From Modestobacter sp. L9-4 (lineage in GTDB: Bacteria; Actinomycetota; Actinomycetes; Mycobacteriales; Geodermatophilaceae), in the NCBI RefSeq assembly GCF_019112525.1, contig NZ_CP077800.1, positions 620,001-684,000 on the forward strand: a stretch of 64,000 nt of DNA. Reading direction: 5' to 3'. The translations under genes and the position numbers were made by a program. Shown here in pieces: positions 1 to 10,246 of this stretch (position 1 is its first letter; each line of letters starts with the position of its first letter). Below the pieces are notes generated by a model. That model ran no database searches. It had not been told where the DNA came from and worked only from the letters and a program-made list of their open reading frames with translations.

Positions 1-775
1 GCGCGGTCCACCCGCCGTCGACCACGAGGACGGTCCCGGTGACCAGCCGGGAGGCCGGCGCGGACAGGTAGACCACCGCGCCGGCGACGTCGGCGGGCGT
101 GCCCAGCACCCCCAGCGGGATCCGGGCGAGCACCTCGTCCCGCAGCCCCGGGCCGTCGAGCAGCGGTGCGGTGCCGGGCGTGCGCACGAACGTCGGCGCG
201 ACCGTGTTGACGGTGATGCCGTGCTCGGCCCACTCCAGCGCCAGCACCTTGCCCAGCTGGTGGAGGCCGCCCTTGCTGGCGCAGTAGACCGCGGCGTCGG
301 GCAGCCCGACCAGGCCGCCCTGCGAGCCGATCATCACGATCCGGCCGCCGCCGCGCGGGACCATGACCCGGGCGACCGCCTGGCTGACGAAGAAGGCGCC
401 CCGCAGGTTCACCGCCATCATCTCGTCGAAGTCGTCCTCGGTGACGTCGAGCGCGCGGTGGGCGGTGCCGAGCCCGGCGTTGTTGACCAGCACGTCGATC
501 CGGCCGTGCCGGGCGACGACCTCGGCCACGGCCGCACCGATCGAGGCGACGTCCCGCACGTCGAGCAGCACCGAGGTGACCGGCAGGCCGCGGTCGGCGG
601 CCTCGGCCTCGATCGCGGCGACGTCCTCTCGCGTCCGCGCCGTCGCCACGACCTCTCCCCCGGCCTCCGCGAGGTGGAAGGCCAGTTCGCGGCCGATGCC
701 GCGGGTGGCGCCGGTGACCAGCACGACCCGTCCGCCGAGGTCGAACCAGCTGCCCACCGGTGCCGGCGTGCTCAC
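1..775 (-). CDS. SDR family oxidoreductase (C-terminus cut by window edge)
   Basis: Classical short-chain dehydrogenase/reductase, a cytosolic NAD(P)-dependent alcohol/ketone oxidoreductase; substrate unknown. Visible: cofactor motif TGATRGIG (residues ~21-28), NNAG (~97), catalytic Ser in IGSQGG (~149), YCASK (Tyr ~164), and the typical C-terminal VVDGGW; only the last few residues are missing. The start is a GTG that overlaps the stop of the ROK regulator gene by 4 bases (GTGA), so the two are translationally coupled. It is divergent from the amino-sugar/amino-acid operon and probably serves the same sugar pathway (inference). Confidence 0.9.
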
Positions 776-1995
776 GCGGCCGGACCGGCGCCGACGGCGG
801 CGTTCACGCGGGTGGGCTCGAAGAGGTGCTCCAGCGCCAGGTGCGCCCCGCCGATGACGCCGGCCAGCGGCCCGGCGCGGGTCACGGTGACCTGCAGGGC
901 GTCGGTGGCCAGCGGGAGGCACCGCTCGTAGACGACCGCGCGCAGGCCGGAGACCCACGGCTCGGCCTGGCTCAGCCGGCCGCCGAGCACCAGGGTGTCG
1001 GGGTTGAAGAAGTTCAGCACGTTCGCCAGCACCTCGCCGGTGGCCCGCCCGGCGGAGCGGAGCAGCTGGGCGGACACCGGCTCGCCGTCGGCGGCCAGCC
1101 GCAGCACGTCGGCGGTGTCGGTGACCGGCAGGCCGGCCGCGGCCAGGTCGCGGGCGAGGGCGGCGCCGCTGGCCACGGCGTCCAGGCAGCCGATCCGGCC
1201 GCAGGAGCACGGGACGTCGGAGTGCGTGCCGACCGAGGCGTGGCTGATGTCGCCGGCGGCGCCGCGCGCCCCCCGGTGCAGGTGCCCGTCGATGACCACC
1301 CCGCAGCCGATGCCCGACCCGGCCTTGAGGAACACCAGGTGGCGCCCCGGCTCCGGGGTCGCGGCGTACTCCCCCACCGCCATCAGGTTGGCGTCGTTCT
1401 CCACCAGCACCGGGACGTCGACCAGCCGCCCCAGCAGCGCGCGCACGTCGACGCCGTTCCAGCCGGGCATCCGGGCCGGGGTGACCACCCGGCCGGCCTG
1501 GGCGTCCACCGGACCGGGCACCCCCACCGTCACCGCGTGCAGCGGCGCGGGCCCGTCCAGGCCCGCGAGCATCTCCACCAGCTGACCGTGCACCCAGCCC
1601 AGCACCGACTCCGGGCCGTCCTGCACCCGGATCGACGCCGAGCGCTCGGCCAGCAGCCGGCCCCCGAGGTCGAACAGCGCCAGCGCGGCGTGCGAGCCAC
1701 CGAGGTCGGCGGCGGCGACCACCCCGCCGGCGCTGCGCAGCCGCACCTGGCGGGGACGGCGCCCGCCGTGGGACACGCCCTCCCCGGCCTCCTCGAGGTA
1801 GCCGTGGTCGAGCAGCGCCTGGACGCGGGTGGCCGCGGTCGTGGCGGAGATGCCGGTCAGCCGGGCGATCTCCGAGCGGGAGGAGACGTGCCCGGTGCGG
1901 ACGAGCTGGAGCACCGCCCCGGGCGAGTCGGGCGCCACCAGTCCGCTCGGCGCCCAGGAGGGGCCGTCGGGCGTCCAGGAGGAGACGGTGGCCAC
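772..1995 (-). CDS. ROK family transcriptional regulator
   Basis: 407 aa. N-terminal winged helix-turn-helix (~residues 28-70, with [10 protein letters not shown] then [12 protein letters not shown]), then a ROK sugar-binding domain from ~93 ([10 protein letters not shown]) with the structural zinc motif CSCGRIGC (263-270). The kinase motif ExGH is GDISH (248-252) here, as expected for a sensor that no longer phosphorylates sugar. The GTG start lies 7 bases after a TACAAA -10-like element, so the mRNA may be leaderless. It is divergent from the transporter/asparaginase/nagAB operon and likely represses it in response to an amino sugar or its phosphate; this role is inferred from position and family (NagC/Mlc type). 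Confidence 0.92.
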
Positions 1996-2106
1996 AGCGG
2001 ACTTTGTACCAGCTCTGTGAACTTTGCCCGGTGTTGCGTTGACATGCTCCAGAAATTGGACTTATGTCTGCCTCGTCCGAGCGAGACCGGTGAGGAGCGA
2101 CACACG
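1996..2106. promoter_or_regulatory. divergent control region with ROK-type operator candidate
   Basis: Contains two direct ACTTTG repeats (2001-2006 and 2021-2026) exactly 20 bases apart, that is two helical turns. The first overlaps the likely -10 (TACAAA, minus strand 2008-2003) of the ROK gene. For the plus-strand operon TTGACA (2039-2044) and TATGTC (2063-2068) form a -35/-10 pair with an 18-base spacer, and GAGGAG (2092-2097) is the ribosome binding site 9 bases before the ATG at 2107. Autoregulation plus control of the operon is inferred. Confidence 0.55.
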
Positions 2107-2844
2107 ATGCCAGCGATGATCACGGTCTCCGGGGTCAACAAGCACTTCGGCGACCTGCACGTGCTGCGCGACATCGACCTGGAGGTCGCGCCCCGCGAGG
2201 TCGTGGTGGTGGTCGGCCCCTCGGGCTCGGGCAAGTCGACCCTGTGCCGCACCCTCAACCGGCTGGAGACGATCGACTCCGGCCGGATCGAGATCGACGG
2301 CCGCCCCCTGCCCGAGGAGGGCAGCGAGCTGGCCCGGCTGCGCTCCGAGGTGGGCATGGTCTTCCAGTCCTTCAACCTCTTCGGACACCGCACCGTGCTG
2401 GACAACCTCATGCTCGCGCCGGTCGCCGTCCGCAAGCTGTCCAAGCAGGTCGCCCGCGACCGGGCCCTGGAGCTGCTGGACCGGGTGGGGCTGGCCGGCA
2501 AGGCCGACGCGCTGCCCGCGCAGCTGTCCGGTGGGCAGCAGCAGCGCGCCGCCATCGCCCGAGCCCTGGCCATGGAGCCGAAGGTGATGCTCTTCGACGA
2601 GCCCACCTCGGCCCTGGACCCGGAGCTGGTCAGCGGCGTCCTCGACGTGATGGCCGGCCTCGCCGCCGAGGGCATGACCATGGTCGTGGTCACCCACGAG
2701 ATGGGCTTCGCCCGCCGGGTCGCCGACCGGGTCGTCTTCATGGACGCCGGGGAGATCGTCGAGCAGTCGACGCCCGCGGAGTTCTTCGCCGGCGCCCGCA
2801 CCGAACGCGCCCGCTCCTTCCTGTCCAAGGTGCTCGCCCACTGA
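2107..2844 (+). CDS. polar amino acid ABC transporter, ATP-binding protein
   Basis: 245 aa ATPase of the PAAT type (GluA/GlnQ-like) that powers uptake through the two permeases encoded downstream. Walker [10 protein letters not shown] (37-45), Q-loop MVFQSF (~87), signature LSGGQQQR (~140), Walker [12 protein letters not shown] (~162) and the H-loop THEM are all intact, so it should be active. The ATG at 2107 is chosen because GAGGAG precedes it and the family N-terminus ([12 protein letters not shown]) begins there; a much longer upstream reading frame is antisense to the ROK gene. First gene of the operon ending with nagB. Confidence 0.95.
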
Positions 2845-2970
2845 GCCCGAGGTGCCCAGGCACCGGGTCCGCACCGCCCGGGGGCGCACCCGCACCCCGG
2901 CAGCACCCCGCACCACCCCACGACCCCCACAGGACCCACGACCCCGCGCAGGCGGGACAGGAGGAACCCC

Positions 2971-3939
2971 ATGTCGACGACCCGTTCCCGGCTGCGCCCC
3001 CGTGCGCTGGTGGGACCCACCATCGGCGCGACCGTGCTCGCCCTGGCACTCACCGGGTGCGGTGGCAGCTCGGAGTCGGCCTCCTCCGCGGTGCCCGGCG
3101 CTGCGCCGTCCTCGGCCGCCGCTGCGGCCCAGGACGTGCTCGCCGGCGCCCCTGTCGCCGACGTCGCCGCGATCCTGCCGGGCTCGACCATGGAGCGGAT
3201 CAAGCAGCGCGGCGAGCTGGTCGTGGCCGAGGCGCTCGACGCCCCCCTGCTGAGCCAGCAGGACCCGGCGAACCCCGACCAGGTCACCGGCTTCGACGCC
3301 GACATGGCCAAGGCGCTGGCCACCTACATCCTCGGTGAGCCGAAGGTGAAGATCGTGCCGCCGGCGACCGAGACGCGCGAGGCGCTGCTGGCCAACGGCA
3401 CCGTCGACGTCGTCTTCAACACCTACACGATCACCCCGGAGCGGGCCGAGCAGGTCGACTTCGCCGGACCGTACTTCTCCTCCGGGCTGTCCATCGCGGT
3501 CAAGACCGGCAACACCGACATCAAGACCGTGGACGACCTCGACGGCAAGAAGGTCATCGTCGGGGCCAACACCCCGGCCGTCACCGCCGTGCCGGAGAAG
3601 GCCCCCAACGCCGAGATCATCACCTTCGGCACCGACCCGCAGGCGGTGCAGGCGCTGACCCAGGGCCGCGGCGACGCCTACGTCCAGGACGTCACGCTGC
3701 TGGCCAGCGACGCGGTGAGCAACAAGGACATCACCGTGGTGGGCAGCCCCTTCACCTCCGAGCCCTACGGCATCGGCCTCAAGCACGACGACGCGCAGAT
3801 GAAGCAGTTCGTCAACGACTGGCTCGAGCAGATCTACGCCGACGGCACCTGGACCAAGATCTGGCAGAACTCCCTCGGCACCGTCGTCCAGGGCGAGGCC
3901 CCGACGCCGCCGGAGATCGGTTCCGTCCCCGGGTCCTGA
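2971..3939 (+). CDS. polar amino acid ABC transporter, substrate-binding lipoprotein
   Basis: 322 aa. Type II lipoprotein signal peptide with lipobox LTGC (Cys30), a Ser/Ala-rich linker, then the bacterial solute-binding family 3 fold (about 65-310), which captures polar amino acids outside the membrane. Features such as MERIKQRGELVVAEALDAP and VDVVFNTYTITPERAEQVDF are typical of glutamate/glutamine/aspartate binders, but exact ligand cannot be read from sequence. Preceded by an AGGAGG ribosome binding site. Together with an asparaginase and amino-sugar enzymes downstream, the ligand could be an amino acid amide or an amino-acid/sugar conjugate (inference). Confidence 0.93.
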   Translation: MSTTRSRLRPRALVGPTIGATVLALALTGCGGSSESASSAVPGAAPSSAAAAAQDVLAGAPVADVAAILPGSTMERIKQRGELVVAEALDAPLLSQQDPANPDQVTGFDADMAKALATYILGEPKVKIVPPATETREALLANGTVDVVFNTYTITPERAEQVDFAGPYFSSGLSIAVKTGNTDIKTVDDLDGKKVIVGANTPAVTAVPEKAPNAEIITFGTDPQAVQALTQGRGDAYVQDVTLLASDAVSNKDITVVGSPFTSEPYGIGLKHDDAQMKQFVNDWLEQIYADGTWTKIWQNSLGTVVQGEAPTPPEIGSVPGS

Positions 3940-4022
3940 CCCCCGCACGCCCCGGCCCGGTCGACGACCGGGCCGGGGCCGTGTCCCCCACCGGACCCGC
4001 TGCCCCCTGAGGGAGACCGCCC

Positions 4023-4667
4023 GTGGAAGCCCTGCTCGACAACGCCGGCCCGCTGCTGCAGGGCCTGCTGACCACGCTGTGGATCGCCGCCGTCGCCGGC
4101 GTCGGCGCCCTGGTGCTCGGCGTGCTCGTCGCCGCCGCCCGGGTCAGCCCGGTGCCCGTGCTGCGCGGCGTCGCCTTCGGCTACGTCCAGCTGTTCCTCA
4201 ACGTCCCGCTCCTGGCGCTGCTGGTGCTCTTCGTCTTCGCGCTGCCCGACGTCGGCCTGCTGATGCCGCTGGCCACCACCGTCGTGGTCGTGCTGGTGGT
4301 CTACGAGGCCGCCTACGTCGCCGAGGCGGTGCGCAGCGGGGTCAACACCGTCTCCCTCGGCCAGGCCGAGGCCGCCCGCGCCCTGGGCCTGACCTTCGTG
4401 CAGAGCCTGCGGCTGGTGGTGCTGCCGCAGGCCGTGCGCGCCGTCGTCCAGCCGCTGGGCAACGTGCTGATCGCGCTGGTGATGAACACGGCGCTGGCCG
4501 CGGCGGTCGGCGTCGTGGAACTGACCTCGGCCACGAACAAGGTGAACCTGGTGGAAGCGCAGCCCATCCCGATCTTCGCCGGCGCCGGCGTGCTCTACAT
4601 GCTGGTCGCACTCACCATCGGGCTGCTCAGCGGCGTGGTGGAGCGCCGGGTGGCGATCGCCCGATGA
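4023..4667 (+). CDS. amino acid ABC transporter permease (GluC-like)
   Basis: 214 aa membrane permease with about five transmembrane helices and the EAA-type coupling loop (AEAARALGLTFVQSLRLVVLPQA region, ~115-140) that docks the ATPase. GTG start 7 bases after GAGGGAGA. The stop overlaps the next permease by 4 bases (ATGA), so both halves of the heterodimeric channel are made in step. Together with the ATPase and lipoprotein it forms a complete polar amino-acid importer. Confidence 0.93.
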   Translation: MEALLDNAGPLLQGLLTTLWIAAVAGVGALVLGVLVAAARVSPVPVLRGVAFGYVQLFLNVPLLALLVLFVFALPDVGLLMPLATTVVVVLVVYEAAYVAEAVRSGVNTVSLGQAEAARALGLTFVQSLRLVVLPQAVRAVVQPLGNVLIALVMNTALAAAVGVVELTSATNKVNLVEAQPIPIFAGAGVLYMLVALTIGLLSGVVERRVAIAR

Positions 4668-5539
4668 GCGCCCGCCGCCCCCGCCGGGCCTCCACGGCCA
4701 GCGTCCTGTACGACGCACCCGGCCCCCGCACCCGCCGCCGGATCGCCCTCGCCTCCGGCGTCACCGTCGTGGTGGTCGTCGCCGCGCTGGTCCTCGCGCT
4801 GCGCGAGTTCGCCTCGCACGGGCAGCTCGACGCCGACCGCTGGGCGCCCTTCGCCAGCTGGCCGATCTGGTCCTACCTGCTCGTCGGGCTCCGCGGCACG
4901 CTCCTGGCGGCCGCGCTGACCGCCGTCCTGTCGGCCGCGGCCGGGGTGCTGCTGGCCCTGGGCCGGCTCAGCCGGGTGCGGCTGGTGCGCTGGCCGGCCA
5001 CCGCCTACATCGAGGTGGCCCGCGCGCTGCCGGTGCTGCTGCTCATCTACGTCACGCTCTTCGGCCTGCCCCGCTACGGCATCGACCTGCCGCTGCTGTG
5101 GAAGCTCGTCGTCCCGCTGACCGTGGCCAACTCCGCGGCGTTCGCGGAGATCTTCCGCGCCGGCATCCTCAGCCTGCCCCGCGGACAGGACGAGGCGGCC
5201 CGCAGCCTCGGCATGAGCGGCGCGCAGTCGATGCGGCTGGTCGTGCTGCCGCAGGCGGTCCGCCGGGTGACCCCCTCGGTGGTCACGCAGCTGGTCAGCC
5301 TGCTCAAGGACACCTCGCTGGGCTACGTCGTCGCCTTCACCGAGCTGCTGTTCCGGGCGCAGGTGCTGGCCTCCTACAACCGCCTGCTGGTGCAGACCTT
5401 CCTGGTCGTCACCGCCATGTACCTCGTCGTCAACGGGCTGCTGTCGGCCCTGGCCAGCCGGCTGCAGGACGCCAGCCGCCGGCGCACACCGAGCACCCCC
5501 GACGTCCCGCTGCTCGCCGCCGAGGAGATCCATGCCTGA
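4664..5539 (+). CDS. amino acid ABC transporter permease (GluD-like)
   Basis: 291 aa second permease subunit. Has an Arg-rich cytoplasmic N-terminus (~1-35), a first helix at ~36-58, then the BPD_transp_1 fold with an EAA loop around DEAARSLGMSGAQSMRLVVLPQA. The start ATG overlaps the preceding stop (ATGA). Its 3' end overlaps the asparaginase gene by 8 bases; the overlap ties transport to the hydrolase. The C-terminal tail after ~270 is short and hydrophilic. Confidence 0.93.
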   Translation: MSARRPRRASTASVLYDAPGPRTRRRIALASGVTVVVVVAALVLALREFASHGQLDADRWAPFASWPIWSYLLVGLRGTLLAAALTAVLSAAAGVLLALGRLSRVRLVRWPATAYIEVARALPVLLLIYVTLFGLPRYGIDLPLLWKLVVPLTVANSAAFAEIFRAGILSLPRGQDEAARSLGMSGAQSMRLVVLPQAVRRVTPSVVTQLVSLLKDTSLGYVVAFTELLFRAQVLASYNRLLVQTFLVVTAMYLVVNGLLSALASRLQDASRRRTPSTPDVPLLAAEEIHA

Positions 5540-6515
5540 GTTCCCGTACGCCGAGCTCGCCGTCCTGGAGCGCAACGGCTTCCCCGAGAGCCGGCACCTG
5601 GGCACCCTGGTCGGCCTCGCCGCCGACGGCACCGTTGCGCTGCGCCTGGGCGACGCGGACACCGCCGTGCTGCCGCGCTCGTCGACCAAGCCGTGGCAGG
5701 CGCTCGCCGTCCGGCGGTCGGGGCTGCACCTGGGCACCGAGGCGACCGCGCTGTCGGCCGGCAGCCACACCGGGGAGGACCGGCACGTCGCCGTCGTCCG
5801 CGAGGTGCTGGCCGCCGCCGGGCTGGACGAGTCCGCGCTCGGCTGCCCGGTCGACTGGCCCGAGGACGAGCCCACCCGCGAGCGGCTGATCGCCGCCGGC
5901 GAGCAGCGCAGCCGGGTGCGGATGAACTGCTCGGGCAAGCACGCCGCGATGCTGGCCGCCAGCGCGCACAACGGCTGGGACGTCGCCGGCTACCTCGACC
6001 CCGCGCACCCGCTGCAGCAGCTGGTGGCCGAGACGGTCGCCGAGGCCAGCGGCGGACCGGTGACGGCCACCGCGGTCGACGGGTGCGGCGCCCCGCTGTT
6101 CGGCACCACCGTGCTCGGCCTGGCCGGCGCCGTCCGGTCGATGGTCCTCAGCCCCGAGGGCAGCGACGCCCGCGCGGTCGCCGACGCGATGCGCGCGGCC
6201 CCGGAGTTCGTCGGCGGCACCGGGCACGTCAACACCCGGGTCATGCAGCTGCTGCCGGGGGTGCTCGCCAAGGGCGGCGCCGAGGGCGTGCTGGTGGCCG
6301 CCGCGGCCACCGGCCAGGCGGTGGCGATGAAGGTCGTCGACGGCTCGCCCCGGGCCACGACGGTGCTCGCGCTGGCGGCGCTGCGCGCCCTGGGCGTGGA
6401 CACCGCGCCGGCCGCGGACCTCACCGAGGTCCCGGTGCTCGGCGGTGGCCGCCCGGTCGGCCGGCTGGTCCTGGGCGCCGACCTGGCGGCCGCGCTCGCG
6501 GACGCGTCGGCGTGA
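5532..6515 (+). CDS. asparaginase (Asparaginase_II family, PF06089-like)
   Basis: 327 aa. Members hydrolyse L-asparagine or related amides to aspartate and ammonia and resemble the serine beta-lactamase fold rather than the classical AnsA/AnsB fold. Visible: SSTK at 50-53 (an SxxK-type nucleophile/base pair, as in the family), NCSGKH (132-137), DGCGAP (~184) and VGGTGHVNT (~225). Cytosolic, no signal peptide. Overlaps the upstream permease by 8 bases and the downstream cutC by 4. Its place between an amino-acid importer and amino-sugar genes raises the possibility that the natural substrate is a glycosylated or modified asparagine (inference). Confidence 0.88.
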   Translation: MPEFPYAELAVLERNGFPESRHLGTLVGLAADGTVALRLGDADTAVLPRSSTKPWQALAVRRSGLHLGTEATALSAGSHTGEDRHVAVVREVLAAAGLDESALGCPVDWPEDEPTRERLIAAGEQRSRVRMNCSGKHAAMLAASAHNGWDVAGYLDPAHPLQQLVAETVAEASGGPVTATAVDGCGAPLFGTTVLGLAGAVRSMVLSPEGSDARAVADAMRAAPEFVGGTGHVNTRVMQLLPGVLAKGGAEGVLVAAAATGQAVAMKVVDGSPRATTVLALAALRALGVDTAPAADLTEVPVLGGGRPVGRLVLGADLAAALADASA

Positions 6516-7216
6516 CCCTGGTCGAGATCTGCGTCGACGACGTCGCCGGGGCCCGCACCGCCGAGGCCGCCGGTGCCGACCGGGTGGAGCTGTGCGCCGA
6601 CCTGCTCGAGGGCGGCACCACGCCCAGCCCCGGCATGCTCGACCGCACCCTGGCCACGCTCACCCGGGTCGGCCTGCAGGTGCTGGTCCGCCCCCGCGGC
6701 GGCGACTTCGTCTACGACGCCGACGAGGTCGCGGTCATGCGCGCCGACGTCCGCGCCGTTCGCGCGCTGGCCGCCGGCGCCCCCGTGCCGGTGGGCTTCG
6801 TGCTCAGCGGGCTGACCCCCGACGGCCGGGTCGACCGGGCCGTGCTCGCGGCACTGCTCGAGGAGTGCGGCGACGCACCGACCACGTTCAGCAGGGCCTT
6901 CGACGAGGTGGCCGACCGGCGGACGGCGATGGACGAGCTCGCCGCGCTCGGCGTGCACCGGGTGCTCACCTCCGGCGGGGCCGCCACCGCCGCGGCCGGG
7001 GCCGACGAGCTGCGGGAGCTGGCCACCGACGGGCGGGTGACCGTGCTCGCCGCCGGGTCCGTGCGGTCGGGCAACGTGGGCGAGCTGCTGACCCGCACCG
7101 GCGTGCCCGAGGTGCACCTGCGCGCCCCCGGGCCCACCGGCGGCCGCCCCCGCACCTCCCCCGAGGAGGTCGCCGCGGTCCTCGCCGCCGTCCGGGCCCA
7201 CCGGGACGCCGCGTGA
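6512..7216 (+). CDS. cutC: CutC family TIM-barrel protein
   Basis: 234 aa, close to the usual CutC length. Opens with the family signature EICVDDVAGARTAEAAGADR then VELCADLLEGGTTPS; later VLVRPRGGDFVYD (~52-65), GFVLSGLTPDGRVD (~92) and VLTSGG (~151) are all family hallmarks. CutC was named for copper tolerance, but a biochemical role in copper is doubtful and its fold is that of an enzyme. Here it is translationally coupled on both sides (GTGA overlaps) to an asparaginase and a ROK sugar kinase, which fits an enzymatic step in amino-sugar metabolism better than metal homeostasis (inference). Confidence 0.88.
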   Translation: MTLVEICVDDVAGARTAEAAGADRVELCADLLEGGTTPSPGMLDRTLATLTRVGLQVLVRPRGGDFVYDADEVAVMRADVRAVRALAAGAPVPVGFVLSGLTPDGRVDRAVLAALLEECGDAPTTFSRAFDEVADRRTAMDELAALGVHRVLTSGGAATAAAGADELRELATDGRVTVLAAGSVRSGNVGELLTRTGVPEVHLRAPGPTGGRPRTSPEEVAAVLAAVRAHRDAA

Positions 7217-8259
7217 CCGGCAGCACGACGCCGGACACCGCGGCACCGGACACCGCGCCGGCGGACACGACGGCGGCGGACATGGCGGCGCTCGCGGTCG
7301 ACGTGGGCGGGACGACGGTCAAGGGCGCCCTGGTCGACGCCGCCGGCCGGCCGCTGCACGAGGTCGCCGCACCCACCTCGCCCGCCGACGGGACCCCGGT
7401 CGCCGACGTGCTCACCGCGGTGCTGGCCGAGCTGGCCGGCCGGGCCGAGGCGGCGGGACTGCGCGTGGTCGGCGCCGGCGTCGTCACCCCGGGCACCGTC
7501 GACGAGACCACCGGCCGGGTCGGGTTCGCCGCCAACCTGGGTTGGCGGGACTTCGACCTGCGCGCCCACCTGGAGCAGCGGGTCGCCGTCCCGGTGGCCG
7601 TCGGCCACGACGTGCGGGCCGCGGGTGCGGCCGAGGCGCTGCTGGGCGCCGGTCGCGGCGCGCGCGACCTGGCCTTCATCGCCCTCGGCACCGGGATCGC
7701 GGCGGCGCTGGTCACCGGCGGCGCCGTGGTGACCGGGGCGACCCGCGCGGCCGGGGAGATCGGGCACATGCCCGTGCACCCCGGCGGACGCCGGTGCACC
7801 TGCGGCCAGGTCGGCTGTCTGGAGGCCTACGCCTCCGGCGCCGCCGTGGCGCGCCGCTACACCGAGCTCGGCGGCGCCCCCGGCAGCACGGCCGGGGACG
7901 TCGCGGGCGCCCTGGGCACCGACCCGGCCGCCGACCAGGCGTGGCAGGAGGCGGTGCAGGCGCTGGCGCTGGCCGCCAGCACGCTCACCATGGCGCTGGA
8001 CCCCGCGCTGCTCGTCATCGGCGGCGGGCTGGGCCGGGCCGGGGAACGGCTGCTCGCCCCACTGCGCCGCGAGCTGGCCGGGCTGCTCGCCTGGCGGCCC
8101 GCGCCCCGACTCGCCGCCGCCGAGCTCGGTCAGGACGCCGGCCGGGTGGGGGCGGCCATGCTGGCCTACCGCGCCGCCGGGCACGGCGCCGTGGTGGAGC
8201 GCTGGACCCCCGCCGACGTCCTGGGCCCCCGGGACGCGGCCGTGGAGCCGGCCGGGTGA
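7213..8259 (+). CDS. ROK family sugar kinase (probably N-acetylglucosamine or glucose kinase)
   Basis: 348 aa. An Asp/Thr/Ala/Pro-rich N-terminal tail (1-24) precedes the ATP-binding motif VDVGGTTVKG (29-38); an ATG at 7282 is an alternative start just before it. The catalytic GHDVRAAG, the full ExGH motif (GEIGHMPVHPGG, ~176) and the zinc motif CTCGQVGC (~196-203) mark an active ROK kinase, in contrast to the regulator at 772-1995. Next to nagA and nagB it most likely makes GlcNAc-6-phosphate, the substrate of NagA. Start GTG overlaps the cutC stop by 4 bases. Confidence 0.9.
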   Translation: MTGSTTPDTAAPDTAPADTTAADMAALAVDVGGTTVKGALVDAAGRPLHEVAAPTSPADGTPVADVLTAVLAELAGRAEAAGLRVVGAGVVTPGTVDETTGRVGFAANLGWRDFDLRAHLEQRVAVPVAVGHDVRAAGAAEALLGAGRGARDLAFIALGTGIAAALVTGGAVVTGATRAAGEIGHMPVHPGGRRCTCGQVGCLEAYASGAAVARRYTELGGAPGSTAGDVAGALGTDPAADQAWQEAVQALALAASTLTMALDPALLVIGGGLGRAGERLLAPLRRELAGLLAWRPAPRLAAAELGQDAGRVGAAMLAYRAAGHGAVVERWTPADVLGPRDAAVEPAG

Positions 8260-9446
8260 CCGGCTCGCCCGAGCTGCTGCTGCGCGGCCGGCTGGTCAGC
8301 GGCGGGCAGGTCGTCGCCGACGGCCTGGTCGCCGTCACCGGCGGGACCGTCACGTGGGCCGGGCCGACCACCGGCTGGACCGGCCCGGCCGCGCTGCCCC
8401 CACCGGCACCGGACCGGCTGCTGCTGCCCGGCCTGGTCGACGTGCACTGCCACGGCGGCGGTGGGGCCGGCTTCCCCGACGACGACCTCGCCGGCGTGCA
8501 CGCCGCGGTGGCCGCCCACCGCAGCCGGGGCACCACCAGCCTGGTCGCCAGCCTGGTCTCGGCCCCACCCGCGGTGCTGCGCGAGCGGATCGCCCTGCTG
8601 GCGCCGCTGGTCACCGCCGGTGAGCTGGCCGGCCTGCACCTGGAGGGCCCGTTCCTCAGCGCCGCCCGCTGCGGCGCCCAGGACCCCGCCGCCCTGCTGG
8701 CCGGCGACCCGGAGCTGCTGGCCGACCTGCTGGCGGTGGCCCCGGGCGCGGTCGTGTCGATGACGCTGGCCCCGGAGACCGCGCGGGCCGGGCAGCTGGT
8801 CGAGGTGCTGCGCGCGCACGGCGTGCTGCCCAGCTTCGGGCACACCGACGCCGACGCCGCCACGACCACCACCGCGGTCCGGTCCGCCGCGGCCACCGGC
8901 CGGGTCTCGGTGACCCACCTGTTCAACGCGATGGCACCGCTGGCGTCCCGGGCGCCGGGCCCGGTCGCCGCGTACCTGGCCGCGGCCGCCCGCGGCGAGC
9001 TGGTGGTCGAGCTGGTCGGCGACGGCGTGCACCTGGCGCCGGAGACCGTGGCCGCGGTGTTCGACCTCGTCGGCCCCGGCCAGGTCGCGCTGGTGACCGA
9101 CGCGATGGCCGCCGCGGGCATGCCCGACGGCCGCTACCGGCTGGGCGCGCTCCCGGTGCAGGTGAGCGGCGGGACGGCCCGCCTGGCCACCGACGACGGC
9201 ACCCCGGGCGCCATCGCCGGCGGCACCGCGCGGCTGGTCGACGTCGTGGCGCGCACCGTGGCCGCCGGCGTGCCCCTCGCGGCCGCGGTCACCGCCGCCA
9301 CCGCCACCCCCGCCGGCCTGCTGGGGCTCTCCCCGCGGGTGGGCGACCTCGTCGCCGGCGCCCGTGCCGACGTGCTCGTGACCGACCCCGACCTGGAACC
9401 CGTCGCCGTCCTCCGGGCCGGCCGCTGGGTCCGAGAGGAGAGCTGA
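8256..9446 (+). CDS. nagA: N-acetylglucosamine-6-phosphate deacetylase
   Basis: 396 aa amidohydrolase converting GlcNAc-6-P to glucosamine-6-P and acetate in the cytosol. Seen: metal site DVHCHGGGGAGF (~63), LHLEGPFLS (~127), FGHTDADA (~192), VTHLFNAMAPL (~217), and the catalytic aspartate in LVTDAMAAAGMPDG (~280). GTG start overlaps the kinase stop by 4 bases. The gene after it is nagB, giving a complete route from GlcNAc-6-P to fructose-6-P. Confidence 0.95.
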   Translation: MTGSPELLLRGRLVSGGQVVADGLVAVTGGTVTWAGPTTGWTGPAALPPPAPDRLLLPGLVDVHCHGGGGAGFPDDDLAGVHAAVAAHRSRGTTSLVASLVSAPPAVLRERIALLAPLVTAGELAGLHLEGPFLSAARCGAQDPAALLAGDPELLADLLAVAPGAVVSMTLAPETARAGQLVEVLRAHGVLPSFGHTDADAATTTTAVRSAAATGRVSVTHLFNAMAPLASRAPGPVAAYLAAAARGELVVELVGDGVHLAPETVAAVFDLVGPGQVALVTDAMAAAGMPDGRYRLGALPVQVSGGTARLATDDGTPGAIAGGTARLVDVVARTVAAGVPLAAAVTAATATPAGLLGLSPRVGDLVAGARADVLVTDPDLEPVAVLRAGRWVREES

Positions 9447-9448
9447 CC

Positions 9449-10246
9449 GTGGAGGTCGTCCTGCTGCCCACCCCCGAGGACTGCGGGCGGGTGGTCGCCG
9501 ACGCCCTGGAGGGGGCGCTGACCGGCGCCCGCGACCGGGGCGCCCCGGTGGTGCTGGGCCTGGCCACCGGGTCCTCCCCGCTGCTGGCGTACCGGGAGCT
9601 CATCCGCCGGCACACCGAGGACGGGACGTCCTACGACGACGTCACGGCCGTCCTGCTCGACGAGTACGTGGGGCTGCCCGCCGGGCACCCGGAGTCCTAC
9701 CGCGAGGTCATCCGCCGCGAGCTCACCGACGCCCTCGGCATCGACCCCGCCCGGGTGCACGGCCCCGACGGCGCCGGCCCCGACCCGCTGGCCGCGGCGC
9801 TGGACTACGAGGCGCTGCTGGAGGCGACCGGGCCCGTCGCGGTGCAGCTGCTCGGCATCGGCACGAACGGGCACATCGGCTTCAACGAGCCCGGGTCGTC
9901 GCTGGCCAGCCGGACCCGGGTCAAGACGCTCACCGAGCAGACCCGCGCCGACAACGCCCGGTTCTTCGGGGACGACGCCGAGGCGGTGCCCCGGCACGTG
10001 CTCACCCAGGGGCTGGGCACCATCCTGCGCGCCGGGCACCTGGTGCTCGTGGCCACCGGCGAGCACAAGGCCGCCCCCGTCGCCGCCGCCGTGGAGGGGC
10101 CGCTCACCGCGTCGGTGCCCGGCTCGGTGCTCCAGCTGCACCCGCACGTCACCGTCGTGGTGGACGAGGCGGCCGGCAGCCGGCTCCAGCTGGCCGACCA
10201 CCACCGCTACGTGCTCGAGCACAAGCTGGCCGCCCAGGGCTGGTGA
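9449..10246 (+). CDS. nagB: glucosamine-6-phosphate deaminase
   Basis: 265 aa isomerase/deaminase that turns glucosamine-6-P into fructose-6-P and ammonia. Hallmarks: LGLATGSSPLLAYREL (~31), the DEYVGLPAGHPESY segment (~71) and the catalytic region GIGTNGHIGFNEPGSS (~133-148). GTG start two bases after the nagA stop, with AGAGGAGAG as ribosome binding site inside the nagA end. Last gene of the operon; a strong hairpin follows. Confidence 0.95.
   Translation: MEVVLLPTPEDCGRVVADALEGALTGARDRGAPVVLGLATGSSPLLAYRELIRRHTEDGTSYDDVTAVLLDEYVGLPAGHPESYREVIRRELTDALGIDPARVHGPDGAGPDPLAAALDYEALLEATGPVAVQLLGIGTNGHIGFNEPGSSLASRTRVKTLTEQTRADNARFFGDDAEAVPRHVLTQGLGTILRAGHLVLVATGEHKAAPVAAAVEGPLTASVPGSVLQLHPHVTVVVDEAAGSRLQLADHHRYVLEHKLAAQGW

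Follow-up and report, generated by a model that had tools for sequence, protein, structure and literature searches.

What compound is imported and broken down by a bacterium that places an amino-acid transporter and an asparaginase-type amidase in one run of genes with CutC, a sugar kinase, nagA and nagB? Such a locus opens the 64,000-nucleotide stretch of Modestobacter sp. L9-4 DNA analyzed here (the window). On balance, we favour the view that the unit catabolizes an N-glycosyl-asparagine, most likely GlcNAc-β1-N-Asn from digested N-glycoproteins, of which GlcNAc-Asn is the remaining stub.

Organization of the unit and the proposed pathway

The genes, strands and junctions described by the initial annotation agree with the ORF coordinates and with Pfam and NCBIfam matches (Table 1). 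Four-base overlaps join the two permease genes, amidase and CutC, CutC and the ROK kinase, and the kinase and nagA; permease B and the amidase overlap by 8 bases, and nagA and nagB are 2 bases apart. The first genes are uncoupled, with gaps of 126 bases between the ATPase and the lipoprotein and 83 bases between the lipoprotein and permease A. A ROK regulator and an SDR gene do diverge from the plus-strand unit. The SDR gene starts with GTG at 775, overlapping the regulator stop, and runs past the window edge; it is probably peripheral. The helix-turn-helix matches of the regulator are weak and under their Pfam cut-offs, and the protein is predicted to repress the unit.

Table 1. Coordinates of the unit and its divergent neighbours in the window
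Feature	Coordinates	Strand	Basis
SDR oxidoreductase	2..775	-	Pfam PF13561 adh_short_C2 1.4e-63
ROK-family transcriptional regulator, divergent	772..1995	-	Pfam ROK 2.9e-50
ABC importer ATPase, amino-acid type	2107..2844	+	Pfam; NCBIfam best GlnQ 8.2e-92, below family cut-off
SBP_bac_3 lipoprotein	2971..3939	+	Pfam 5.1e-25
Importer permease A	4023..4667	+	PF00528, HEQRo_perm_3TM
Importer permease B	4664..5539	+	PF00528, HEQRo_perm_3TM
Class 3 (PF06089) amidase	5532..6515	+	Pfam 5.9e-98; ReAIV/ReAV fold; tree grouping; group-specific residues
CutC	6512..7216	+	Pfam 1.4e-54; CutC fold; contexts and fusions elsewhere
ROK-family sugar kinase	7213..8259	+	Pfam 3.4e-57
nagA, GlcNAc-6-phosphate deacetylase	8256..9446	+	NCBIfam nagA, 184.1 bits
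nagB, glucosamine-6-phosphate deaminase	9449..10246	+	NCBIfam nagB, 243.7 bits

The SBP_bac_3 protein, the PAAT-type permeases and the ATPase make up a polar amino-acid importer; no substrate-specific equivalog cut-off was reached in NCBIfam. Residues R158 and D240 of the lipoprotein are kept in all 41 aligned sequences. We take them to be the Arg/Asp pair known from GlnH-type proteins, and the lipoprotein is predicted to bind an alpha-amino-acid head group. The translated ROK gene shows the motifs DVGGT and CTCGQVGCLE, which presumably mark a sugar kinase. Its best NCBIfam match is the ROK glucokinase subfamily, below cut-off, and it is predicted to be a GlcNAc kinase. NagB scores above its cut-off (TIGR00502, 236.9 bits). 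NagA falls short of its own (TIGR00221, 225.65 bits) and is so named because of its best match and its linkage to nagB.

We infer the following series of reactions. The lipoprotein and ABC importer would take up GlcNAc-Asn by its amino-acid head group, and the amidase would cut the side-chain amide to give aspartate and 1-amino-GlcNAc. CutC would act on the released sugar, the ROK kinase would form GlcNAc-6-phosphate, NagA would deacetylate it and NagB would convert the product to fructose-6-phosphate, all under control of the divergent ROK repressor. The order amidase-CutC-kinase-nagA-nagB matches these reactions, and the transporter, amidase and kinase genes expected for GlcNAc-Asn utilization are linked, the substrate of the kinase being a predicted one. 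In addition, nagA and nagB have one match each in the genome, inside the unit, while congeners keep them elsewhere, which also argues for this reading. The two genes complete the sugar arm as in the NagA/NagB GlcNAc pathway; the difference is that supply would come through an amidase and an amino-acid-type ABC importer.

The literature matches listed include one described route by which a bacterium takes up and degrades a glyco-amino acid of this kind, in a lactobacillus. Its glycosylasparaginase belongs, we assume, to PF01112. The alf-2 cluster of Lactobacillus casei BL23 serves fucosyl-GlcNAc-Asn catabolism and, in the available portion of the source, resembles the pathway proposed for the unit: the intact glyco-amino acid enters by its own transporter, GlcNAc-Asn is split inside the cell into Asp and 1-amino-GlcNAc, and a ROK-family sugar kinase follows (PMC6960285). 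In contrast, it has an MFS permease instead of an ABC importer and a self-processing glycosylasparaginase instead of a PF06089 protein, and it adds a fucosidase, AsdA, PepV and a GntR regulator; CutC is not listed in that portion (PMC6960285). GlcNAc-Asn use by L. casei relies on transporter and amidase families other than those of the unit. If the reading is right, actinobacteria would also harvest GlcNAc-Asn, by a second route whose importer and amidase are unrelated to those of the first.

Conservation of the module and the identity of the sugar

Two sets of loci were compared: nine close loci, from eight same-genus genomes and one same-order genome, and the best 80 PF06089 amidase neighbourhoods from named genomes. 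All genes from the divergent ROK regulator through the ROK kinase are present in 9/9 close loci. In the wider sample, importer and amidase occur together in 31 loci from several actinobacterial families; 26 of these have the ROK regulator, 19 have CutC and 6 the ROK kinase. Beside the remaining 49 amidases, regulator, CutC, kinase, nagA and nagB were each found in none. Since the stretch from regulator to kinase recurs in full in 9/9 close loci and in part in 31/80, the unit is real and not a chance arrangement, and this pattern of association supports the N-glycosyl-asparagine reading. The divergent intergenic regions were extracted, and no shared operator was derived from them.

The neighbourhood comparison suggested by the initial annotation therefore shows importer, amidase, CutC and kinase recurring together, while nagA and nagB seldom adjoin. 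nagA is present in 0/9 and nagB in 1/9 close loci, and each in 1/31 importer-amidase loci, the same one for both. The claim of one unit through nagB holds within the lineage of the window and not for most relatives read; nagA and nagB lie outside the conserved unit and are a local addition. Likewise, amino-acid import with no sugar transporter describes the window, whereas in one congener (L118) genes for a sugar-type ABC importer follow immediately downstream.

The rarity of nagAB and the 12/31 importer-amidase loci in which CutC has no match count against GlcNAc-Asn. The rarity of nagAB also leaves room for the same architecture acting on another sugar, with candidates in Amadori compounds (fructose-asparagine, for example), in asparagine bearing glucose or a further sugar, and in N-acyl amino sugars. 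The kinase product in most relatives need not be GlcNAc-6-phosphate, and GlcNAc is supported mainly by the lineage of the window and Klenkia (L035). Some weaker structural matches of the lipoprotein in the PDB are deoxyfructosyl-amino-acid binding proteins (5l9o, 5lom), and in pathways for fructose-asparagine an asparaginase works together with a kinase and a deglycase. However, Pfam finds no SIS-type deglycase in the unit, ROK kinase, CutC and nagAB suit amino sugars, and CutC on plasmids often accompanies glycosylasparaginase, nagA, nagB, murQ or GH20. We regard a different conjugate as rather unlikely.

The PF06089 amidase

With 328 bits against a Pfam cut-off of 25, the amidase is a member of the class 3 L-asparaginases (PF06089) and not of the known glycosylasparaginase family PF01112. 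The top Foldseek matches of its predicted fold are ReAIV and ReAV of Rhizobium etli (E 9.8e-27), at 31 or 25 percent identity. R49, S50, K53, S78, C133, K136, C185 and K247 are found in 43/43 module and 55/55 housekeeping sequences. They correspond to ReAV R47, S48, K51, S80, C135, K138, C189 and K263, by an equivalence drawn from the ReAIV alignment and motifs; the Ser-Lys tandems, Arg47 and the zinc residues are thus all present. The roles of these residues are those given in the available parts of the R. etli class 3 enzyme papers, in which parts no GlcNAc-Asn assay was found.

The module amidases nevertheless differ from the housekeeping group at positions 77, 80, 130, 228, 232 and 234. 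The equivalent of ReAV Cys249 is Asn234 in the module group, and the neighbouring Arg is replaced by His or Gln. These changes appear to surround the active site and may give the pocket room for a sugar. The comparison covers the 43 and 55 rows above and leaves out the long-branch housekeeping row L099 and 14 rows that fall on the module side with no importer (6 Nocardiopsidaceae, 5 Microbacteriaceae, 2 Lentzea, 1 Kribbella). On a tree built by FastTree only, with long branches flagged, the module label changes 5 times, compared with 34.6 in shuffles. Kept catalytic residues with altered surroundings argue for a specialized paralogue, a predicted N-glycosyl-asparagine amidohydrolase, which may work like a glycosylasparaginase without being a member of that family. 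If so, class 3 asparaginases, studied as antileukemic candidates, would gain a new activity. ReAIV and ReAV differ also in context, since the window amidase adjoins an importer, CutC and a kinase.

A simple possibility is that the unit takes up and deaminates plain asparagine (or glutamine or aspartate), CutC and the amino-sugar genes being merely co-regulated. PF06089 is known as an L-asparaginase family, L-Asn is the substrate of the class 3 enzymes known so far, the importer is of amino-acid type, the catalytic residues are kept and 12/31 importer-amidase loci gave no match for CutC; the activity of the known enzymes also speaks against the glycosyl reading. However, the genome encodes a second PF06089 protein, of the common housekeeping type, from which the amidase groups apart and differs in residues, so plain asparagine is probably covered. 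The single PF01112 protein of the genome, outside the unit, matches asparaginase/isoaspartyl-peptidase best (3e-62, versus 3e-31 for glycosylasparaginase). Both proteins add support to N-glycosyl-asparagine, and a housekeeping identity is not preferred for the amidase of the unit, given that second copy and the clustering of module copies. Moreover, the CutC and kinase genes overlap and are fused in two cases, and the regulator is of ROK type. We therefore consider plain asparagine unlikely.

The muropeptide-like compound also offered by the initial annotation is very improbable: the available text likens ReAV to penicillin-binding proteins and beta-lactamases (PMC8602277), beta-lactamases are distant Foldseek matches of the amidase and murQ lies near CutC in 3/22 plasmid loci, but neither Pfam nor NCBIfam finds murQ or another muropeptide gene in the unit, for which the reading was dropped, the binding protein is of small-molecule type with the amino-acid-type Arg/Asp, and the kept zinc and Arg residues, which bind Asn through its free alpha-amino and carboxyl groups, suit a free glyco-asparagine over a peptide.

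CutC and its neighbours

CutC scores 185 bits against PF03932 (cut-off 23.3) and 155.9 bits against the NCBIfam equivalog, below the cut-off of 311; by Foldseek, human CutC matches it at 2.2e-25. The His of the HRAFD motif, nearly invariant elsewhere, is Ser in the window protein and in L114 and L115, a warning for an enzymatic reading should that His be catalytic. To our knowledge, no reaction is known for this family, though humans and the minimal cell both have a member. Gene linkage does not bear out its copper-homeostasis label: the unit contains no copper gene, and the annotated plasmid loci, several others being unannotated, show just a cueR about 11.5 kb from CutC (L140). According to the available text of PMC6538781, E. 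coli cutC mutants are sensitive to copper entirely because they lose MicL, a small RNA that overlaps cutC. No open-access paper among the matches listed links CutC with asparaginase, glycosylasparaginase, amino sugar or ROK; in L. sakei, cutC and asnA2 carry distant locus numbers in the accessible text and hence show no link (PMC3146418).

There are hints, instead, that CutC is a sugar-handling enzyme, predicted to act at C1. In three Hymenobacter loci (L132, L133, L138) CutC shares a 4-base overlap with a gene that is annotated as glycosylasparaginase and has no relation to PF06089; the overlap of amidase and CutC in the window has the same length. A ROK gene is nearby in two and glycosidases surround the pair, GH92 in all three; unlike the window, the stretches read contain no amino-acid ABC importer. 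On an alphaproteobacterial plasmid (L146) the order is amino-acid permeases and ATPase, PF01112 amidase, SBP_bac_3, LacI gene, ROK gene, CutC, with the amidase closest in the PDB to glycosylasparaginase and the ROK product to GlcNAc kinase. These Bacteroidota pairs and the plasmid cluster help to make GlcNAc-Asn the favoured one of the substrates first suggested. Against this, the only NCBIfam match of the L146 amidase, as of the Hymenobacter enzyme, is beta-aspartyl-peptidase, below cut-off, and annotated relatives are named isoaspartyl peptidase/L-asparaginase. The initial idea of a molecule with amino-acid and amino-sugar parts is consistent with the recurring module, the specialized amidase and CutC beside glycosylasparaginases, from which the joint substrate would follow by inference.

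1-Amino-GlcNAc, the product of glycosylasparaginases and PNGases, is assumed to decay unaided. We suggest tentatively, and with considerable doubt, that CutC fills a gap in N-glycan breakdown: as a glycosylamine hydrolase (or C1 mutarotase), it would turn 1-amino-GlcNAc into GlcNAc for the kinase. This is suggested by its place between amidase and kinase, its overlap with glycosylasparaginase genes, its position before PNGase F in Persicobacter and its fusion to a ROK kinase in two actinobacteria (L034 and L037), and weakly by the presence of TrpF and HisA, enzymes with glycosylamine substrates, among its distant fold neighbours. It would re-assign a family that spans bacteria to humans and is retained in the minimal cell; through the unit, CutC function could be probed at low cost. 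An amino-sugar gene lies near CutC in just 4/18 loci of the Actinomycetota scan, which opposes a sugar role and, with 0/2 Enterobacterales loci read, the N-glycosyl-asparagine reading as well. The plasmid loci are 22 of 58 records, chosen for diversity, of which L128, L129, L131-L135 and L138 supplied counted query proteins, so that their own matches are circular. Among the other 14, matches occur in 7 (L130, L139, L140, L143, L145, L146, L148) and in none of L141, L147 and L149; two more have PNGase F and two carry the module.

Gene content and conservation of the unit

When both strands of 2-10246 were read and the frames identified with Pfam and NCBIfam, eleven genes were found (table below). 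From permease A to nagA, successive neighbours share 4, 8, 4, 4 and 4 bases, a gap of 2 bases separates nagA from nagB, and a convergent thiolase gene follows the unit. Every detail of genes, strands and overlaps in the initial annotation that was checked by these means was correct.

Genes of the unit in the window and CutC-ROK kinase frames in two other actinobacterial loci
Feature	Position	Strand	Basis
SDR	within 2-10246	minus	Pfam, NCBIfam
ROK regulator	within 2-10246	minus	Pfam, NCBIfam
ABC ATPase	within 2-10246	plus	Pfam, NCBIfam
SBP_bac_3 lipoprotein	within 2-10246	plus	Pfam, NCBIfam
Two permeases	within 2-10246	plus	Pfam, NCBIfam
PF06089 amidase	within 2-10246	plus	Pfam, NCBIfam
CutC	6512-7216	plus	Pfam, NCBIfam
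ROK kinase	within 2-10246	plus	Pfam, NCBIfam
nagA	within 2-10246	plus	Pfam, NCBIfam
nagB	within 2-10246	plus	Pfam, NCBIfam
CutC-ROK kinase, 621 aa	L034:9023-10888		single open frame
CutC-ROK kinase, 561 aa	L037:8969-10654		single open frame

The unit is real and conserved. With the amidase as query, a scan of genome contigs gave more than 80 loci, and the window proteins were run by tblastn against the best 80. The importer was scored as present when at least two of the binding protein, permease A and permease B lay alongside the amidase, as in 31 of the 80. In these 31 loci the ROK regulator was matched in at least 26, the ATPase in at least 21, CutC in at least 19, the ROK kinase in at least 6, and nagA and nagB in at least 1 each; the counts are lower bounds because some contigs stop within the unit. 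In the 49 amidase loci of the best 80 without importer, tblastn gave no match to the regulator, CutC, kinase, nagA or nagB, and the ATPase was matched in one.

The module amidase is present in 8 of 22 other genomes of the genus, some of them incomplete, and in one genome of the same order, and the block from regulator through kinase is complete in all nine of these close loci. Module carriers with CutC include Leifsonia, Frigoribacterium, Klenkia, Microbacterium, Georgenia, Micromonospora, Actinomadura, Planotetraspora phitsanulokensis, Microbispora and, on plasmids, Embleya; by tblastn, CutC was not matched in the module loci of Nonomuraea, Lentzea and Planotetraspora mira.

The amidase and the binding lipoprotein

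A housekeeping PF06089 copy lies elsewhere in the window genome, and most relatives searched have the same kind. In a FastTree tree of 113 sequences, 56 rows form a housekeeping side, and the 57 rows on the opposite side comprise all 43 module sequences and 14 others. On the module side, the amidases of L103, L107, L109, L111 (Microbacterium) and L095 (Labedella) have no neighbouring match to the importer, CutC or the kinase.

The equivalents of the catalytic and zinc residues of ReAV, a class 3 L-asparaginase of Rhizobium etli, are conserved in all 98 sequences compared (43 module, 55 housekeeping). Around them the two groups differ. Position 232, the only one picked out by the 85 percent test, is His (39) or Gln (4) in the module and Arg (54) or His (1) in the housekeeping group; the remaining positions were read off selected alignment stretches. 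All 43 module sequences have Asn at 234 (housekeeping Asp 38, Glu 10, Val 5, Thr 1, one other), Gly at 77 (Ala 46, Gly 7, Ser 2), Gly at 228 (Ala 31, Gly 12, Ser 12), Thr at 80 (Ser 44 and others) and Arg at 130 (mixed, Arg 5). Position 191 is Gly in 35 of 43 module and Ala in 45 of 55 housekeeping sequences. Judged from the alignment, position 234 would be equivalent to ReAV Cys249, for which one account gives a distance of about 5 A to the nucleophile (PMC8602277). In ReAV, Arg47 is described as gripping the substrate carboxylate (PMC12292245), and the zinc as anchoring the alpha-amino and carboxyl groups (PMC12951835). Since Arg47 and the zinc residues are conserved and nearby positions are altered, the grip on the head group is probably retained in different surroundings, which might suit a leaving group larger than ammonia. 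The amidase model (mean pLDDT 95.2) matches the structures of ReAIV and ReAV.

In the lipoprotein, Arg158 and Asp240, the positions that hold the amino-acid carboxylate and amine in GlnH-type proteins, are conserved in all 41 aligned sequences. The PDB sequences nearest to it either carry names of glutamate- or glutamine-binding proteins or belong to reconstructed ancestral ones.

nagA, nagB and sugar transport

The nagA and nagB genes of the unit are the sole matches in the window genome. Their place in the unit, as annotated initially, is confirmed there and does not extend to most relatives (nagA in 0/9 and nagB in 1/9 close loci). In the near relative G010 the module (L114) has nagB alone, at 85 percent identity to the window gene, and a nagAB pair lies at another locus next to a GntR-type match; this is a possible intermediate of nagAB capture. 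In Klenkia (L035), nagA, nagB and a GntR gene are convergent, right behind the kinase. Among 18 genomes of the genus, the window's included, both genes are present in 9/9 with the module versus 5/9 without it. From this placement and occurrence, nagAB appear to have been recruited to the module in the window's lineage; in other lineages general nag genes could supply it. The initial remark that a sugar transporter is lacking applies to the window unit and is not general, since the kinase of the congener locus L118 is followed by SBP_bac_8 and permease genes of a sugar-type ABC importer.

CutC and the proposed pathway

The proposal that the imported molecule joins an amino acid to an amino sugar is partly supported; the substrate is what we infer. 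GlcNAc-Asn would be imported and its amide cleaved to give Asp and 1-amino-GlcNAc; CutC would act on the released sugar, and phosphorylation, deacetylation and deamination would follow in that order. For L. casei, PMC6960285 describes the identical amidase reaction, then a non-enzymatic conversion of 1-amino-GlcNAc, a compound it calls unstable at acidic pH. In gene order CutC follows the amidase and precedes the kinase, and two loci join it to the kinase in one frame, so CutC may perform this conversion in a near-neutral cytoplasm. A C1 mutarotase role would better explain the amidase-free contexts (GH20, murQ). Even taken together, hydrolase of 1-amino-GlcNAc and C1 mutarotase are rather unlikely to be the function of CutC.

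It is in CutC that the wider interest of the unit lies. In E. coli, the sensitivity of cutC mutants to copper is ascribed to loss of the MicL sRNA (PMC6538781), and a minimal-cell report lists CutC among unknown proteins (PMC4993169). The CutC model (pLDDT 94.7) matches human and bacterial CutC best and, far more weakly, the other barrels MJ1099, PdxS, TrpF-type and HisA, which is weak evidence because barrels widely match each other. The His of the HRAFD motif is nearly invariant across aligned CutC sequences; in the window protein (residue 127), L114 and L115 it is replaced by Ser.

CutC was found by tblastn in 58 plasmid records, and 22 neighbourhoods were read for a ROK gene, nagA, nagB, murQ, GH20, glycosylasparaginase or PNGase F. 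Two Enterobacterales loci, where CutC adjoins argS, have none of these kinds nearby, and two Embleya loci bear the module. Such a gene lies within about 8 kb in 17 of the remaining 18 (annotation and queries, part of the loci having supplied the queries), L148 being counted solely on a ROK gene; the exception is L141, with a fucosidase alone. Three Hymenobacter loci show a 4-base overlap between a glycosylasparaginase gene and CutC, and in two Persicobacter plasmids (L136, L142) SusC-size and SusD-size frames precede CutC, with PNGase F directly downstream. L146, on an alphaproteobacterial plasmid, combines importer permeases and ATPase, SBP_bac_3, a LacI gene and CutC with a PF01112 amidase (best PDB match glycosylasparaginase, 3e-36; next 2zak-type, 1.5e-26) and a ROK protein (best NCBIfam match GlcNAc kinase, 183 bits, below the cut-off of 380). 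Two related Phyllobacterium plasmids (L198, L199) have an amino-acid ABC importer, a LacI regulator and, between ATPase and binding protein, a glycosylasparaginase-like PF01112-type gene, without CutC. As controls, the same queries gave 0/49 in PF06089 loci without importer and 0/5 in glycosylasparaginase-like plasmid loci.

In the Actinomycetota scan CutC was present in 36 of 296 genomes, and with the same queries only 4 of 18 fetched loci had an amino-sugar or N-glycan-amide gene nearby, which counts against a sugar role. In the congener G013 (L209), which lacks the module amidase, a PF01425 amidase gene precedes a CutC that shares 88 percent identity with the window copy. An M81 (MlrC-type) metallopeptidase gene adjoins CutC in three loci of the scan (L188, L191, L193) and is adjacent or within about 8 kb in L130, L131, L140 and L145.
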